From a virus, in IMG/VR virus record IMGVR_UViG_3300023198_001155, positions 1 to 25,272 of that record: a stretch of 25,272 bases of DNA; one strand, given 5' to 3'. The translations under genes and the position numbers were made by a program. Every line of letters begins with the position of its first letter. The first letter of the stretch is position 1. The notes below the pieces were generated by a model. That model ran no database searches. It was not told the origin of the DNA and worked only from the letters and a program-made list of their open reading frames with translations. Positions 19,536 through 25,272 of this stretch are shown here, one piece after another.

Positions 19536-21374
19536 ATGGCAAAAGTAGTAGACCCCGATGTGTTAGCATTGATCGTTGATGGTTCAGCGAGTACTGAAGA
19601 AATTGAAATTCAGACCGATGCTAAAACCATTGAAGTCACCTTAGTTGGTGATGTCGATGATGATAGTCCTGGAGCAACATCTGGGGTTACAAAGCAATGT
19701 GTTTATTCATTTCTTAAAGAAGAATGGAAAACCAATGCAACTCTTAATAAGTTTAAATTTCCACTGAAAGCTATCTATGAAGCTAAGTTTATCTGGCAGT
19801 TTGGATGGCAACCGGCTAATCAACAAACCAGGGACCTGTTTCGGGATGCTGGATGGCAGGAGATTGATGGAAGTGAAAAGGCTTGCCTGATCTCACTTGG
19901 TAGCCAGTATGATACTACTCAGCAAGCAGGTTATCAGCAGATAGAAGGTTTCGACCAGGCTTTAACTGATTTTGATAAAACAGGTCTTCTTAACGAAGCA
20001 GTTGAGATTGTAGGTGCAGGAGGTACTCCTGATTATACTGGTTTCATGAAAGTATTCTTGAGAGTATGGCAGAGACTTTATGCTGATTATAATCTTATCG
20101 TAGAGCAGGGATTTACTGCCTTGACATATATCGCATATCGACTTCCTCTTGCCAATGCAAATGATACTAAGAATACTGGTACAACAGAAGCGTTCATTGA
20201 TACTGCGGTGGATCCATATCAGAATATGGAATTGCAGTATTATGTCGGTCAGCTTTTTGTTACAGCTACGGCTACGACCTACGTTCAGGACGATGTTGTT
20301 CAGGATGGTACAGGCAGGTGGGCAAGATGTACTACAGGCGGTACGGTGACTACTCCTGGTGGTGGTTGGGCTGCTTTTGGAGGAACGTCTGTATGGGAAG
20401 CATATCCAGGAGAGCGTCTTATTGGTACGACCTATTATGCTTTCAACAGATCCATTCTTGATGGTGTTAGTGGAACACAGCCAAACAGGGATGAGATCTA
20501 TAAATTTTGTCAGCAGAGACTCCGTAAAGCATCAGACATTAATGATGATAGTGAAGTTGAAGGATACGGAACGGTCAATGGTGAGGTTGCTGTAAGACTT
20601 TGTTACTATGTAGGAGATCAACTTCATTCATGGCCGGGAGTACATTTTGATGATTACGATCCTAATATCAAGAACTTCATCACTCTCCATGATATTAAAG
20701 TAGATACTGGTGGATTGGATGCCGAGGATGTTCCTCTTGAATCCAATGAGATAAATCACCCATTTACTTCAGCAGGGAATATAGTATTTTCTCAAAACCT
20801 GGTTGATGAGACAAATGCTGATACTCTCTATACGATGTACTTCCAGTATATTGCTATACAAACAGCTCAGACCGACTTTACTATATCAGGATCAGCTGGT
20901 GCGAATGCTGTACTTAACGGTACAGGAATGACTTTATCTGTTGGGGAATATTTCATCCTATCTGGATTTACAACTAACCCTGAAAACAATGGTGTTAAGG
21001 TAGCAACTGGATCACCTACTGCAACTGTTGTACCATACACTGATGCTCTTGGGGTTTCTCAGACAGATGATGTAACCGGAGAAGCTGTAACCTTAAAGGA
21101 ACAGCCTTACGATACTGATAGTGCGATCATTGTTGAAGATAGTGCAGTAGCAGACATCCAAGGGCAGGTTACTCAAACTAATGAGCCATTCACCTTTGAT
21201 TATGACGGCAATGTTCAGGGTGGTCGTACTTTTGGGGAGGATGCTCCGGTAGTTGTAACTGCTCAAGGACTGAATGATTCGGAAGTTGTCTTTGCAGAAT
21301 TTACCATTACCCGAGCTGCAGGATTATCATTTCCGGTCAACGCTCCCGATGAAAGAACTTATCTAAATCCATAA
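19536..21374 (+). CDS. Large structural protein with a KEEWKTNA-type domain
   Basis: A 612-residue protein. Residues 61-77 (KEEWKTNATLNKFKFPL) match residues 38-54 of the protein at 21857 (KEDWKTNAALNKLKFPL, 14 of 17 identical); a following block with aromatic residues (KFIWQFGWQPANQQ) also resembles FKYGWTIRPY there. I recall such segments in tail-tip or fibre-adaptor proteins of phages (IYSxWKxW..., then GWRIRP). Residues about 150-420 are mixed, and from about 440 the protein is beta-rich Ig-like (TDFTISGSAGANAVLNGTGM; TFDYDGNVQGGRTFGED). It ends RTYLNP, like YFNPT in the protein before it. Possibly two related virion proteins that assemble together. Role inferred. Confidence 0.6.
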   Translation: MAKVVDPDVLALIVDGSASTEEIEIQTDAKTIEVTLVGDVDDDSPGATSGVTKQCVYSFLKEEWKTNATLNKFKFPLKAIYEAKFIWQFGWQPANQQTRDLFRDAGWQEIDGSEKACLISLGSQYDTTQQAGYQQIEGFDQALTDFDKTGLLNEAVEIVGAGGTPDYTGFMKVFLRVWQRLYADYNLIVEQGFTALTYIAYRLPLANANDTKNTGTTEAFIDTAVDPYQNMELQYYVGQLFVTATATTYVQDDVVQDGTGRWARCTTGGTVTTPGGGWAAFGGTSVWEAYPGERLIGTTYYAFNRSILDGVSGTQPNRDEIYKFCQQRLRKASDINDDSEVEGYGTVNGEVAVRLCYYVGDQLHSWPGVHFDDYDPNIKNFITLHDIKVDTGGLDAEDVPLESNEINHPFTSAGNIVFSQNLVDETNADTLYTMYFQYIAIQTAQTDFTISGSAGANAVLNGTGMTLSVGEYFILSGFTTNPENNGVKVATGSPTATVVPYTDALGVSQTDDVTGEAVTLKEQPYDTDSAIIVEDSAVADIQGQVTQTNEPFTFDYDGNVQGGRTFGEDAPVVVTAQGLNDSEVVFAEFTITRAAGLSFPVNAPDERTYLNP

Positions 21375-21386
21375 AATAATTAAGTT

Positions 21387-21857
21387 ATGAGTAAGTCTAA
21401 AAACGAATCAGGTATAAGTCCTGATGTTCTCAAGAAATACAATGGAGATCTGCTTGACGGATTCTATGATGGTAAGCACCTGAAAAAAATTGGTCTTTAT
21501 GATCGGATGTGTAAAAAGATGGCAAGGTACTGGTGTTATCATTTCAGGAAACTTGTAGTACATGAACAGGATCCTCAAATAAATTCAGGAGTTAATCCAG
21601 AGAAAACTGCCAAGGCTCCAAAGGGATTCAGAGAATTTGTTGAAAGCCTGGAAGGATTTACTGGATGGCCCAAATTTTCCGAAACCTGGGATCTGTATGG
21701 ATCCAATCCTTATATGATTGTCCACAGACTTGTAAGTGTAGAAAAGGAATGGGAGTATGTGATGGAAAGAGTTGCCATACCTATTGATTCAACAAAGGAA
21801 GAAGTTGAGGCAAGGGTAGCAGCTTTGACAAAAGATTATGCCAGAAGGAATAAATAA
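21387..21857 (+). CDS. Hypothetical protein (156 aa) in the virion gene cluster
   Basis: A 156-residue, rather basic and helical protein. It reads MSKSKNESGISPDVLKKYNG, then RMCKKMARYWCYHFRKLVVH, a Trp/Phe-rich centre (FREFVESLEGFTGWPKFSET) and a C-terminal helical part (STKEEVEARVAALTKDYARR). It is sandwiched between the two proteins that share the KEEWKTNA-type domain and overlaps the second by one base (TAATG at 21855-21859), so it may be an assembly partner or chaperone for them. No family recognised. Confidence 0.55.
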   Translation: MSKSKNESGISPDVLKKYNGDLLDGFYDGKHLKKIGLYDRMCKKMARYWCYHFRKLVVHEQDPQINSGVNPEKTAKAPKGFREFVESLEGFTGWPKFSETWDLYGSNPYMIVHRLVSVEKEWEYVMERVAIPIDSTKEEVEARVAALTKDYARRNK

Positions 21858-22384
21858 TGGCTGCGCATCTGGATTATGATACTGATCTGAGAGTAGTTTA
21901 TGTTACTACTGCTCCTACAGACGGGGTGCTTACTCTGGATGTGCAGGTTGATATTTACAGTGATATGAAAGAAGATTGGAAAACTAATGCAGCACTTAAT
22001 AAGCTCAAGTTTCCATTACTGGAACCGGTTGGAGGAAATATCACTAAACCGCCTGACAAGATCAGTCCTTTTTACTTTTTCAAATATGGATGGACAATTA
22101 GACCATATGAAGCTGACCACACATTATATCTACAGAACGCTTATTTGCTTGTTGATGGTGGAGGGGATCCATGGAGAACGACACTTGGAGCTTATACAGT
22201 TAATGTCAGGGATACAGTACCGGCAGATGCTTTTGCTATAGCAGCCGGAGGAGGTGCGACACCAGCAGCGATAGCCGCAGCAGTATGGGCTGAACTGCTC
22301 AATCTTGATGAAGGTGATATGACAGCAGAAGAAGCAATGAGTTTAATTTTACAACGCGCCAGTCTTGGTGCTTTCAAAGAATAA
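21857..22384 (+). CDS. Virion protein with KEDWKTNA-type domain and Ala-rich C-terminal linker
   Basis: A 175-residue protein. The first 140 residues have the pattern of a phage fibre-adaptor family: VQVDIYSDMKEDWKTNAALN, then PLLEPVGGN, FYFFKYGWTIRPYEADHTLY, and TLGAYTVNVRDT. The C-terminus GGGATPAAIAAAVWAELLN, then EGDMTAEEAMSLILQ, is a linker and helix often at the end of this family. It shares a 17-residue stretch with the larger protein at 19536. It is followed 4 bases later by the holin-like gene, so virion genes and lysis genes appear to be on the same message. Role as a tail-tip or fibre-base component is inferred. Confidence 0.65.
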   Translation: MAAHLDYDTDLRVVYVTTAPTDGVLTLDVQVDIYSDMKEDWKTNAALNKLKFPLLEPVGGNITKPPDKISPFYFFKYGWTIRPYEADHTLYLQNAYLLVDGGGDPWRTTLGAYTVNVRDTVPADAFAIAAGGGATPAAIAAAVWAELLNLDEGDMTAEEAMSLILQRASLGAFKE

Positions 22385-22388
22385 TATC

Positions 22389-22712
22389 ATGACAATTCCT
22401 TGCAGTCAAGAACAAAAAATAAAAGATATGTCCAGAGAAATTGGCGAATTAAATAAAGCGGTATTCAAGGGCAATGGAAAAGATAGCATCGTTGTTATGA
22501 TTACGCAGACCAGGGATTCCCAGATAAACCAAGGAAGGAATGTCGATATTCTTAATCAGAATGTTGCTGAACTTCTTAAATTTCAAAATAGGGCTGAAGC
22601 CAGTGAGGAAATAAAAAAAATGGTAAAGCTGAGTAAACGATGGGCAATGGGTCTTGCCATTGGAGCTATCATCAGTATTACTTGTGCATTAATAATTGTA
22701 ATAGCAACATAA
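22389..22712 (+). CDS. Holin/XhlA-like membrane protein
   Basis: A 107-residue protein. I start at ATG 22389 (MTIPCSQEQKIKDMSREIGE); an upstream in-frame ATG would overlap the preceding gene. Residues about 10-80 are a charged coiled coil (DILNQNVAELLKFQNRAEAS), followed by one C-terminal membrane helix (WAMGLAIGAIISITCALIIV). This topology is that of XhlA-like proteins that work with holins and lie next to endolysins. It directly precedes an amidase, the usual order of a lysis pair. It probably perforates or depolarises the inner membrane, or supports another holin. With only one membrane segment it could be an accessory rather than the pore former. Confidence 0.7.
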   Translation: MTIPCSQEQKIKDMSREIGELNKAVFKGNGKDSIVVMITQTRDSQINQGRNVDILNQNVAELLKFQNRAEASEEIKKMVKLSKRWAMGLAIGAIISITCALIIVIAT

Positions 22713-22714
22713 TT

Positions 22715-23323
22715 ATGGCAGAATTAAAAGCACTTTGCGGGCATTGCGCGGATACTAATCCGAATTTTGTATTAACCAAGGATCACCTTGATCAGTGGCA
22801 CATGGGCCCCCGGGATCTCCGTGACGCTCAGGGAAAGAAAACCGGAGAAGTTCGGTACAAAGGGGTAAATTATCCTACTCGCATGGCACTCCCTCATCAC
22901 TATCTCGGCATGCGTCCCATTCAGGAACTTTATGGCAGAGGTTGGGACCGGCTCGGGTACAGTGATATGATTAAACGCAACGGAACCATCGAAAACCTTA
23001 CTGCGTACAATCAAGACGACTGGGTAGATCCGAAAGAAATGACCTGGGGAGCAACAGGTACAAATAGCTGGACACGGCACTTTGTACTTGAAGGTGGCCG
23101 TAATGAAGAGAACGAATCCAGGCTCTTCCAGTTTCATGAGATCTTTACTGATGCACAATTTACTGCCATGGTTGGCTATATTAATCAGTTTCTAAAAGAT
23201 CATCCAGGAGATAAGATTGCAGGACACTATATGTTTTCCAGCAAAACTTGTCCTAACTTTACAATGGAAGATTTCTTTAACTTGGCGGGCATTGATTTAA
23301 AACATCTTTATAAACAAATATAA
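22715..23323 (+). CDS. Endolysin: N-acetylmuramoyl-L-alanine amidase (T7-lysozyme type)
   Basis: A 202-residue Amidase_2-family enzyme that cuts the bond between N-acetylmuramic acid and L-alanine in peptidoglycan at lysis. Zinc ligands fit T7 lysozyme: His10 in CGHCADT, His171 in AGHYMF and Cys179 in KTCPNF, the last two eight residues apart as in T7 (122 and 130). Lys177 takes the place of T7 Lys128, and GYSDMIKRNGTIE aligns with the usual GYHFxIxxDGTI, keeping its Tyr. No signal peptide, so export would depend on the upstream holin-like protein. Start: ATG 22715, 2 bases after the holin stop; the longer upstream frame is shadow. Length is typical, slightly longer than T7 lysozyme. Confidence 0.9.
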   Translation: MAELKALCGHCADTNPNFVLTKDHLDQWHMGPRDLRDAQGKKTGEVRYKGVNYPTRMALPHHYLGMRPIQELYGRGWDRLGYSDMIKRNGTIENLTAYNQDDWVDPKEMTWGATGTNSWTRHFVLEGGRNEENESRLFQFHEIFTDAQFTAMVGYINQFLKDHPGDKIAGHYMFSSKTCPNFTMEDFFNLAGIDLKHLYKQI

Positions 23324-23333
23324 ATCAGAAATC

Positions 23334-23720
23334 ATGAAAAAAATAATTATTTTACTATGCATCGCAGCTGTAGGATTACTTTCTATGGCAGCAAATCGCC
23401 AGAATACAAGTTCTGGTCATGCTTATGCTTTTGTTGACACTGATCCTGCTGCGGCTGGATTTTGGACAGCTTCGGTAAATGTCAAAAGAGAAACATCCAG
23501 GAACAATGTCAAAGATGTTTATTTTTCTTACAGAGGCACCGGATCCATAGTTACACTTCAGTTTAAATGTACAGGTGATGCTGACTGGAGCGATTATGCT
23601 ACATACACGACTGTCACAAGGGTAGTGATTGGCGATAGTGGTGATGGTGTTCTATGGCGAGCTGGAGTAAAAGATGCAGATTATTCAAGTGGGAATACAA
23701 CCTTTGGATTTGACTGGTAA
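23334..23720 (+). CDS. Secreted protein with Sec signal peptide (128 aa)
   Basis: A 128-residue protein with a clear Sec signal peptide: basic start MKKIII, hydrophobic core LLCIAAVGLLSMA and likely cleavage near AA-N at about residue 21. The mature part is beta-rich (HAYAFVDTDPAAAGFWTASV; GSIVTLQFKCTGDADWSDYA) and ends FGFDW; it resembles a small sugar- or surface-binding sandwich domain. Phage proteins with signal peptides are uncommon: they may act in the periplasm or on the surface of the infected cell, or be virion proteins assembled after export. It overlaps the next gene by one base through the repeated GACTGGTAATG junction. Function unknown. Confidence 0.7.
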   Translation: MKKIIILLCIAAVGLLSMAANRQNTSSGHAYAFVDTDPAAAGFWTASVNVKRETSRNNVKDVYFSYRGTGSIVTLQFKCTGDADWSDYATYTTVTRVVIGDSGDGVLWRAGVKDADYSSGNTTFGFDW

Positions 23721-25272
23721 TGAGAAAACTACTGTTCATATTATTGTTGTTGCCACAACTGGCATTTAGTCAGGTAGTTCAACCTGTGGTTAGAAATGTA
23801 GTTCTGGAAACGATCTATCCTCTTACTGGAAGGACTCTTACTCCATATGAGAGGATTTATAATGCCTTTCCTGTAAAACCAACTGAGCCTAAAAGAACAT
23901 ATCAGGAAAATATGATTAATTCTCTTGATGCTTCCGGTTATCTTGATAGGATGTCTGGACTATGGGTATATAATCAGGGAGATTCGGCAACAGCATTATT
24001 TGATTGGAAAAGACTTGATTCAATTTCTGTTGCCAGTAATGTAACCTTCCATGCTGATTCAGGATTTAAAGGTAATGCTGGATCAAGTGGTTATGTAGAT
24101 GCACTATTTAATCCTCATTATAATGATTCAACATATTTTAATAGGCTTAGCGGTTCAATATCTGCCTATGTTATTACCAATGAAAAGGAAGATCATACAT
24201 TTCTATTTGGAAATTCCAGTGGAGGAACACCAGCTAATCCTGCTTATGGACTTATAGTTCGTACAGATGGCTTTCAAGGGAAGTATTCAAATATCAATTC
24301 TCTTTATACTGAAAGTTCAACAGGAGGAAGATATATAGGGTATTGGTCTGTAAATAGATCAGATACTTTAAGTATGCAGCAGTATTACAATGGGATGATT
24401 CAAGATTCAGATGTGGATAAACCGGGACCAAGTAGTCATAATGATGGTTCGATGCACTTTTTCCGCAATGCATCAACAGGGCTGAATCAAAACTCAGACA
24501 TAATTGCTCTGGCGTGGATAGGAGATTCGCTTACTGAAATAGAACAGGGTGAGGTATATGATATATTCTGGACTTATCTTAATAATTGTAATATCGCTGA
24601 TTCCTGGTCTAACAATACAATCATGCGTAATGATTTTGATGGAGTAGGTTATGATGAATGGGCAAATTGGACAGAATCAGGAGCAGTAGATGAAGATTAT
24701 ACCACACCTATATTACAGGGAACTCATTCCTTGTATATACCTGATGGTGCAAATAGTTACAGATATTTTCCTTTTCATGGTGATACTACCAGAATCTTTT
24801 TCAGGATGTTTCTTAATGATGCATCTCCCTCTTCAAACATCAATCCGATGTTTCAGTTACAGAATGTATCAACTACATTACTTGACTTGAGACTATATAC
24901 TACAGGGAGGATACTCCTTGCTTGTGGAGGCCAAACAAATTACGGAGCAACAGTATTGTCTGATGATACAGAATATTTTGTGTGGATAGAATATATTAAA
25001 GGAAGTGGCTCTGATGCCATAGGGAGAATGTGGATAAGCGAAACATCCACAAAGCCGGGTATTGTAGAGTGCGAAGTAACTACAGGGAATAGCACACTTA
25101 AATCAAATAGATTAAGGTACTATGCTGCTTATGGAACGAATCTTTTACTCGATGAACTAACCGTATATACGGACTCGGTTGCAATTACAGAATATAGTGA
25201 GTCTGCATATTATGTTTCTAATAGTGGTAATGATCTAAACGCTGGACACAATCCTGACGCTCCTTGGGCAAC
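23720..25272 (+). CDS. Spike-like protein with signal peptide, LamG-like and beta-helix parts (3' truncated)
   Basis: The frame is open from ATG 23720 to the right edge (517 codons seen). The N-terminus MRKLLFILLLLPQLAFSQ is a Sec signal peptide with the FSQ ending common in Bacteroidota. Two beta-sandwich regions follow, each with concanavalin/LamG-like features: about residues 95-270 (GYVDALFNPHYNDSTYFNRL, IGYWSVNRSDTLSM) and about 310-490 (FDGVGYDEWANWTESG, LLLDELTVYTD). At the edge begins AYYVSNSGNDLNAGHNPDAP, then WA, the typical opening of a right-handed beta-helix (pectate-lyase-like) domain. It is probably a glycan-binding or depolymerising spike or a secreted enzyme. The stop codon lies beyond the window. 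Domain calls are from pattern. Confidence 0.75.
   Translation, partial: MRKLLFILLLLPQLAFSQVVQPVVRNVVLETIYPLTGRTLTPYERIYNAFPVKPTEPKRTYQENMINSLDASGYLDRMSGLWVYNQGDSATALFDWKRLDSISVASNVTFHADSGFKGNAGSSGYVDALFNPHYNDSTYFNRLSGSISAYVITNEKEDHTFLFGNSSGGTPANPAYGLIVRTDGFQGKYSNINSLYTESSTGGRYIGYWSVNRSDTLSMQQYYNGMIQDSDVDKPGPSSHNDGSMHFFRNASTGLNQNSDIIALAWIGDSLTEIEQGEVYDIFWTYLNNCNIADSWSNNTIMRNDFDGVGYDEWANWTESGAVDEDYTTPILQGTHSLYIPDGANSYRYFPFHGDTTRIFFRMFLNDASPSSNINPMFQLQNVSTTLLDLRLYTTGRILLACGGQTNYGATVLSDDTEYFVWIEYIKGSGSDAIGRMWISETSTKPGIVECEVTTGNSTLKSNRLRYYAAYGTNLLLDELTVYTDSVAITEYSESAYYVSNSGNDLNAGHNPDAPWA

Follow-up and report, generated by a model that had tools for sequence, protein, structure and literature searches.

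The window analyzed here, that is, the whole stretch of DNA, is a complete IMG/VR virus record of 25,272 bases. A structural block with a terminase (phrog_6681; distantly crAss-like), a portal, and a major head protein is followed by a holin-like gene, an amidase gene, ORF1, and ORF2 in that order, the last four on the + strand. The holin-like gene (22389-22712) encodes a one-TM, XhlA-like protein (PF10779, E = 0.0038, below the cut-off), and the endolysin gene (22715-23323) encodes an amidase (phrog_822, E = 4e-23). ORF1 (23334-23720) encodes 128 aa. ORF2 starts at 23720, overlaps the ORF1 stop codon by 1 nt (TAATG), and runs for 517 aa to the contig end, where it is open and truncated; its 3' end is absent from the record itself. 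Of 15 records that contain ORF1 relatives or signal-peptide cassettes, none had the window terminase, a count that proves little for fragments. Two other window proteins, encoded at 19536-21374 and 21857-22384, had the motif YSxxKExWKTNAxLNKxKFPL in common (16 of 22 residues identical), and these are possibly repeated small structural domains.

The first-pass annotation had described two adjacent signal-peptide genes directly after a lysis pair, and both points were borne out. ORF1 and ORF2 each began with a convincing Sec signal peptide, in which a positively charged n-region and a hydrophobic core lead up to a cleavage site with small residues. The ORF1 signal peptide covers residues 1-19 (23334-23390), with a predicted cut between AVGLLSMA and ANRQ, and that of ORF2 covers residues 1-17 (23720-23770), with a predicted cut between LLPQLAFS and QVVQ. 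Signal peptides throughout were called with our own heuristic caller, not SignalP; by this caller, the true start of both proteins is followed by an n-h-c signal peptide, as in substrates of Sec and signal peptidase I. Of the 29 window ORFs with 80 aa or more, only ORF1 and ORF2 were positive, so that the late block has two consecutive signal-peptide genes near lysis genes, directly after the amidase. As controls, the caller was positive for 15 of 1225 internal 45-mers, for 0 of 37 CDS from the fibre regions of five annotated phages, and for 0 of 51 structural CDS of the Bacteroidota phages phi38:1, phi14:2, phi17:2, and crAss001. The A-rich leader typical of the ORF1 family precedes the signal-peptide start in the window and is missing before the internal ATG at 23385 (Met18); a dual start, with a cytoplasmic ORF1 made from Met18, was rejected for that reason. 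A two-component spanin, considered from the position of the genes, was also rejected, since no lipobox was seen by eye at the usual place and the ORF1 family also exists without a signal peptide as a soluble jelly-roll.

The mature part of ORF1 (23391-23717) is a candidate adaptor or connector of the spike, as judged from an AF2 model and the family alignment. The model, built on a 25-row alignment, was a jelly-roll with a pLDDT of about 95 over residues 21-128, and confidence over the signal-peptide segment was low (pLDDT 57-58). A fold search returned weak, generic jelly-roll look-alikes (Ena2A, 6.8; HFTV1 turret, 6.2; C1q/TNF), and with Z below 8 for all matches no family could be assigned. 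Scans of viral contigs gave 34 distinct ORF1 family members including that of the window, with the N-terminus visible in 33, and searches with ORF1 among phages, as well as scans of genome contigs, gave no matches. Signal peptides were present in 4 of the 33 (the window, L002, L008, and L009), with GGAGG and AGGAG just upstream of the starts in L002 and L008, respectively; the other 29 had none. In the 25-row alignment, the members without a signal peptide began (MAN or MSN) exactly at the cut of the longer forms (SMA/AN, VFA/AN, and SFA/AN), and over all 29 they began at or near the residue of the predicted cut. The mature products of the two forms would therefore be alike. Those relatives lay in structural blocks, near terminase, portal, and MuF-like genes (roles judged by eye). 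At one further locus (L020 6010-7143), an ORF1-type start led into a longer protein of 377 aa, which had no Pfam match.

The signal-peptide state of ORF1 was coupled to that of its neighbor. The next gene had a signal peptide in all 3 loci with the signal-peptide form and the next gene in view, versus 0 of 25 loci with the short form (Fisher 0.0003; the loci are phylogenetically dependent and represent 1 to 2 independent pairs). The best ORF1 tree had at least 2 changes of signal-peptide state, and a single signal-peptide clade was not rejected (p-AU 0.385). A signal peptide was also called on the second gene after a short ORF1 at five KIEDL-type loci (L012, L014, L015, L025, and L028), and at a sixth if L070 is counted; the signal peptides of ORF1 and of the spike are thus not strictly tied. 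Whether the KIEDL fibre N-terminus occurs both with and without a signal peptide was also considered, and we make no such claim, the profile search having been significant for signal-peptide forms only.

ORF2 is a large, spike-like protein. Its mature N-terminus (23771-23824) has a tag, QVVQPVVRNVV, whose pattern resembles the starts of fibre genes that lie behind a short ORF1 and themselves have no signal peptide, such as MVMIRPVVRSVVSNVV in L018, in a comparison made by eye. Residues 44-287 (23849-24580) form a phage domain of the phrog_26223 type (E = 1e-8 over residues 46-284), a PHROG of unknown function, with tblastn matches in Microcystis, Sinorhizobium, and Flavobacterium phages. Residues 301-494 (24620-25201) were 31% identical to a signal-peptide-bearing gene of the virus vir555 and are probably ConA/LamG-like, as suggested by their relatives. 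The LamG-like regions proposed earlier were weakly supported: ORF2 itself had no Pfam match, and a relative of residues 301-494 in L042 matched Laminin_G_3 with an E-value of 4.5e-4, below the gathering cut-off. The last 20 or so residues (YYVSNSGNDLNAGHNPDAPW) have what we take to be the motif of a pectate-lyase-type beta-helix, and at residues 497-517 (25208-25270), where the contig ends, a right-handed beta-helix may be making its first turn. Used alone as the query, ORF2 gave no matches among viral contigs, its AF2 model made with no alignment had a pLDDT of 31, and a PDB search by sequence gave nothing convincing (best match for the ORF2 domain profile, an alginate lyase, E = 0.06).

Relatives of ORF2 residues 301-494 were found in 8 IMG/VR contigs, seven with a two-row profile and the eighth with a larger one. 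The matching gene had a signal peptide in 7 of the 8; in one of these (L039) it was called only from an inner start preceded by GGAGG. At the eighth locus (L061), neither the relative nor the spike-like genes after it had one. Signal-peptide genes around the relatives occurred in runs of two to five, several of which adjoin lysis-like genes, and Shine-Dalgarno-like sequences preceded many of the starts. Among the genes of these runs were one for a pectate lyase (phrog_27797, E = 1.5e-50) and one for a beta-helix/F5-8 protein of 1595 aa that matched a tail PHROG. In vir555 (L003 3143-8816, BK063671), five consecutive signal-peptide-bearing ORFs follow a tail protein. The small signal-peptide gene of vir555 was considered as an ORF1 homologue and was unsupported (probability 1.2%). 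The recorded host of vir555 is Methanomicrobiales. Cysteine content was 13.4 per 1000 residues in 40 signal-peptide proteins versus 8.6 in other ORFs of the same loci, with 10.9 for fibres of the ORF1 loci without a signal peptide and 3.6 for isolate fibres; the window proteins are Cys-poor, and a disulfide argument for them was dropped.

The predicted cleavage sites were compared with the Q rule, which characterizes the substrates of signal peptidase I in Bacteroidetes and is tied to that peptidase and to a periplasmic glutaminyl cyclase, according to the available part of PMC5837995. The likely cut lay between a small residue and Gln in 30 of 33 distinct signal-peptide N-termini of the Bacteroidota type (47 genes), whereas in later parts of the same proteins a small residue was followed by Gln in 96 of 5142 cases (1.9%). 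N-termini of the Shine-Dalgarno type gave a loose Q call in 8 of 28, several outside the likely cut. This grouping is our own and rests on start-codon leaders and, for isolates, on the recorded host. ORF2 follows the rule, and ORF1 does not; the exceptions among the 33 include the ORF1 of the window and that of L009. As read from sequence, the cassette signal peptides are strong and their cut sites match the rule of the host signal peptidase. These counts bear on a reading in which the hydrophobic N-terminus stays uncleaved and anchors the protein in the membrane or during assembly, with assembly otherwise cytoplasmic. The two ORF1 exceptions, which have no Gln and still carry a Met at the junction, would suit such an anchor, but we regard it as quite unlikely given the Q rule in most N-termini, the complete absence of the segment from homologues without a signal peptide, and the drop in AF2 confidence over the segment relative to the mature domain. 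Cleavage of both proteins by signal peptidase I is the reading we prefer.

Isolated Cellulophaga phages link signal-peptide spikes to virions. In phi10:1, phi19:1, and phi18:3 (NC_021802, NC_021799, and NC_021794), there are 5, 4, and 3 consecutive spike genes with signal peptides. The structural block of phi10:1 ends with gp91-gp95, all with signal peptides, and gp91-gp94 are annotated from MS/MS, as are phi19:1 gp101-gp104 and phi18:3 gp85-gp87, all signal-peptide-bearing. In total, 11 of the 12 genes are annotated as "based on experimental MS/MS proteomics analysis" in GenBank notes, a form of virion evidence compatible with co-purification. Across the analyzed stretches of four phages, which were picked around spikes and so do not give a genome-wide rate, 12 of 24 MS/MS-annotated CDS had a signal-peptide call, namely the 11 cassette spikes and one phi4:1 protein that lies behind the endolysin and has a membrane-anchor-like N-terminus. 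The signal-peptide genes were the only fibre or spike candidates seen in the phi10:1 tail module. Related cassettes with no MS/MS notes of their own were present in phi19:3, phi46:3, phi13:2, Nekkels_1, and Ingeline_1. The annotation as seen does not mention the signal peptides of the spike genes.

Within these cassettes, the N-termini were conserved and the C-termini varied. Residues 1-118/132 of the second spike were 82-96% identical among phi10:1, phi18:3, and Nekkels_1, with different C-termini, and the third spikes had the signal peptide and about 20-40 residues in common and were otherwise different. In phi46:3, the pectate-lyase domain of phi10:1 (93%) sits on the signal peptide and anchor of a third spike, and in phi4:1 and phi14:2 the same domain sits on an N-terminus with no signal peptide and is MS/MS-annotated there too. 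By these comparisons, the signal peptide goes with the anchor, not with the enzyme. Homologues of the first cassette protein occurred in both Assiduviridae and Pachyviridae (52-76% between the compared pairs), families whose members include the siphovirus-like Nekkels and the podovirus-like Gundel, according to the available text of PMC8776804. The swapping of anchors and enzymes and the shared first protein would fit an exported adaptor that carries exported spikes. Two side observations were made at these loci. The genes gp80 and gp81 of phi46:3 (L107 1856-6624) represent a natural spike-domain swap, in which the usual pectate-lyase anchor bears another domain. A conserved, unannotated ORF of 90-91 aa, membrane-protein-like and a possible holin, follows the spike cassette in Pachyviridae and Ingeline (L105 9104-9379, L107 8834-9109, L108 8832-9107, L109 9461-9733, and L112 9069-9344), and the L109 copy had no Pfam match.

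The first-pass annotation had left three options for the exported proteins: enzymes released from the cell, a coat on the cell surface, or parts that virions acquire during or after lysis. If ORF1 and ORF2 were free secreted proteins, released or surface-displayed, that strip capsule or block receptors, they would not be virion parts. Their signal peptides and polysaccharide-active folds would suit that role, and Q-rule signal-peptide proteins of Porphyromonas phages have been proposed to modify the host outer membrane (PMC10367356, in the part available). Against this stand the 11 signal-peptide spikes annotated by MS/MS in virions of three isolated phages, the phi10:1 tail module with its signal-peptide genes as sole spike candidates, and the structural blocks that house the short ORF1 relatives. 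In addition, 10 cassette proteins searched for a type IX sorting domain had none, which makes the periplasm the likely waiting place. We therefore consider free secretion unlikely as the main role of the pair. The third option is favored, because cassettes of the same layout are recorded by MS/MS in Cellulophaga virions and the cut sites follow the host rule; a fraction may also be released free of the virion. A dual location, in which inefficient signal peptides leave part of the spikes to be assembled in the cytoplasm while the exported part acts outside, would reconcile the virion MS with classical assembly, and forms of the same domains with no signal peptide do work in other phages. The signal peptides are nevertheless strong and host-matched, and the sequence has no second start with a proper leader, so we consider this arrangement very unlikely.

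Taken together, these data suggest that ORF1 and ORF2 are probably an exported, signal-processed pair of adaptor and spike that docks on virions at or after lysis. In this scheme, the small jelly-roll adaptor (ORF1) and the large spike (ORF2) would form the receptor-binding end of the virion. Both would be made as preproteins, exported via host Sec, and cut by signal peptidase I, and they would stay in the periplasm for as long as capsids and tails are under construction in the cytoplasm. Once the holin and endolysin from the adjacent genes opened the cell, the compartments would mix, and the adaptor and spikes could dock on the particles. By analogy with the isolates, these findings suggest that some tailed phages may export their receptor-binding parts and mount them at or after lysis. 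A wider version, for which we see evenly balanced prospects, is a two-compartment assembly in which the whole receptor-binding apparatus is Sec-exported, processed, and mounted when the cell opens, encoded by a mobile cassette that moves across siphophage and podophage backbones in phages of Bacteroidota, of bacteria that use Shine-Dalgarno sequences, and perhaps in the methanogen virus vir555. If the host record of vir555 is right, Sec-exported spikes extend to archaeal viruses.

Tailed-phage virions are taught as products of the cytoplasm. If the spikes leave the cytoplasm beforehand, several questions become open and testable: how they fold (with disulfides in Cys-rich cases), whether glycans are digested before lysis, whether progeny are kept from sticking to debris, and whether co-infecting phages mix their spikes phenotypically. 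The isolated Cellulophaga phages make the export question directly testable. Consecutive genes with Q-rule signal peptides close to lysis genes could also offer a simple way to recognize the receptor-binding proteins of uncultivated phages from sequence. As a separate observation, the flavobacterial phages elemoF (L005 3460-5273 and 10426-10968) and phi38:1 (L098 2251-4374) encode their own chaperonins, and the elemoF copies lie beside fibre genes.

Known systems resemble the proposed one in part. The coat proteins of filamentous phages are Sec-exported virion proteins, but those phages lack a tail and leave the cell by extrusion through the membrane. The P22 tailspike can be added late to particles, but it is cytoplasmic. 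In the literature covered, which lay mostly outside subscription journals, no description of Sec signal peptides of tail spikes was found. Host Sec is used by fOg44 Lys44 and SAR endolysins, which are lysis enzymes rather than spikes (PMC6116005, in the part available), and by lambda Lom, which is an outer-membrane protein rather than a spike (PMC12309495, likewise in part). Phages of Porphyromonas gingivalis also encode proteins with Sec signal peptides that obey the Bacteroidetes Q rule; in the available text of PMC10367356, however, these are of unknown function and are not called spikes. The phage crAss001 (NC_049977), also a Bacteroidota phage, has a small head fibre (gp21) followed by a large tailspike (gp22), but unlike in the window neither has a signal peptide. 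The Cellulophaga cassette, with its conserved signal peptide and anchor, variable C-terminus, and pectate lyases, is like the window in having consecutive adaptor and spike genes with signal peptides that close the structural block, near lysis genes. It differs in that those phages are isolated and MS/MS-annotated, whereas the window phage is uncultivated. A phmmer search of ORF1 and ORF2 against the Cellulophaga spikes gave no sequence match at E ≤ 0.1, so the virion evidence reaches the window by layout rather than homology, and we propose that the window pair may work like the Cellulophaga cassette, as its counterpart rather than as a member of it.
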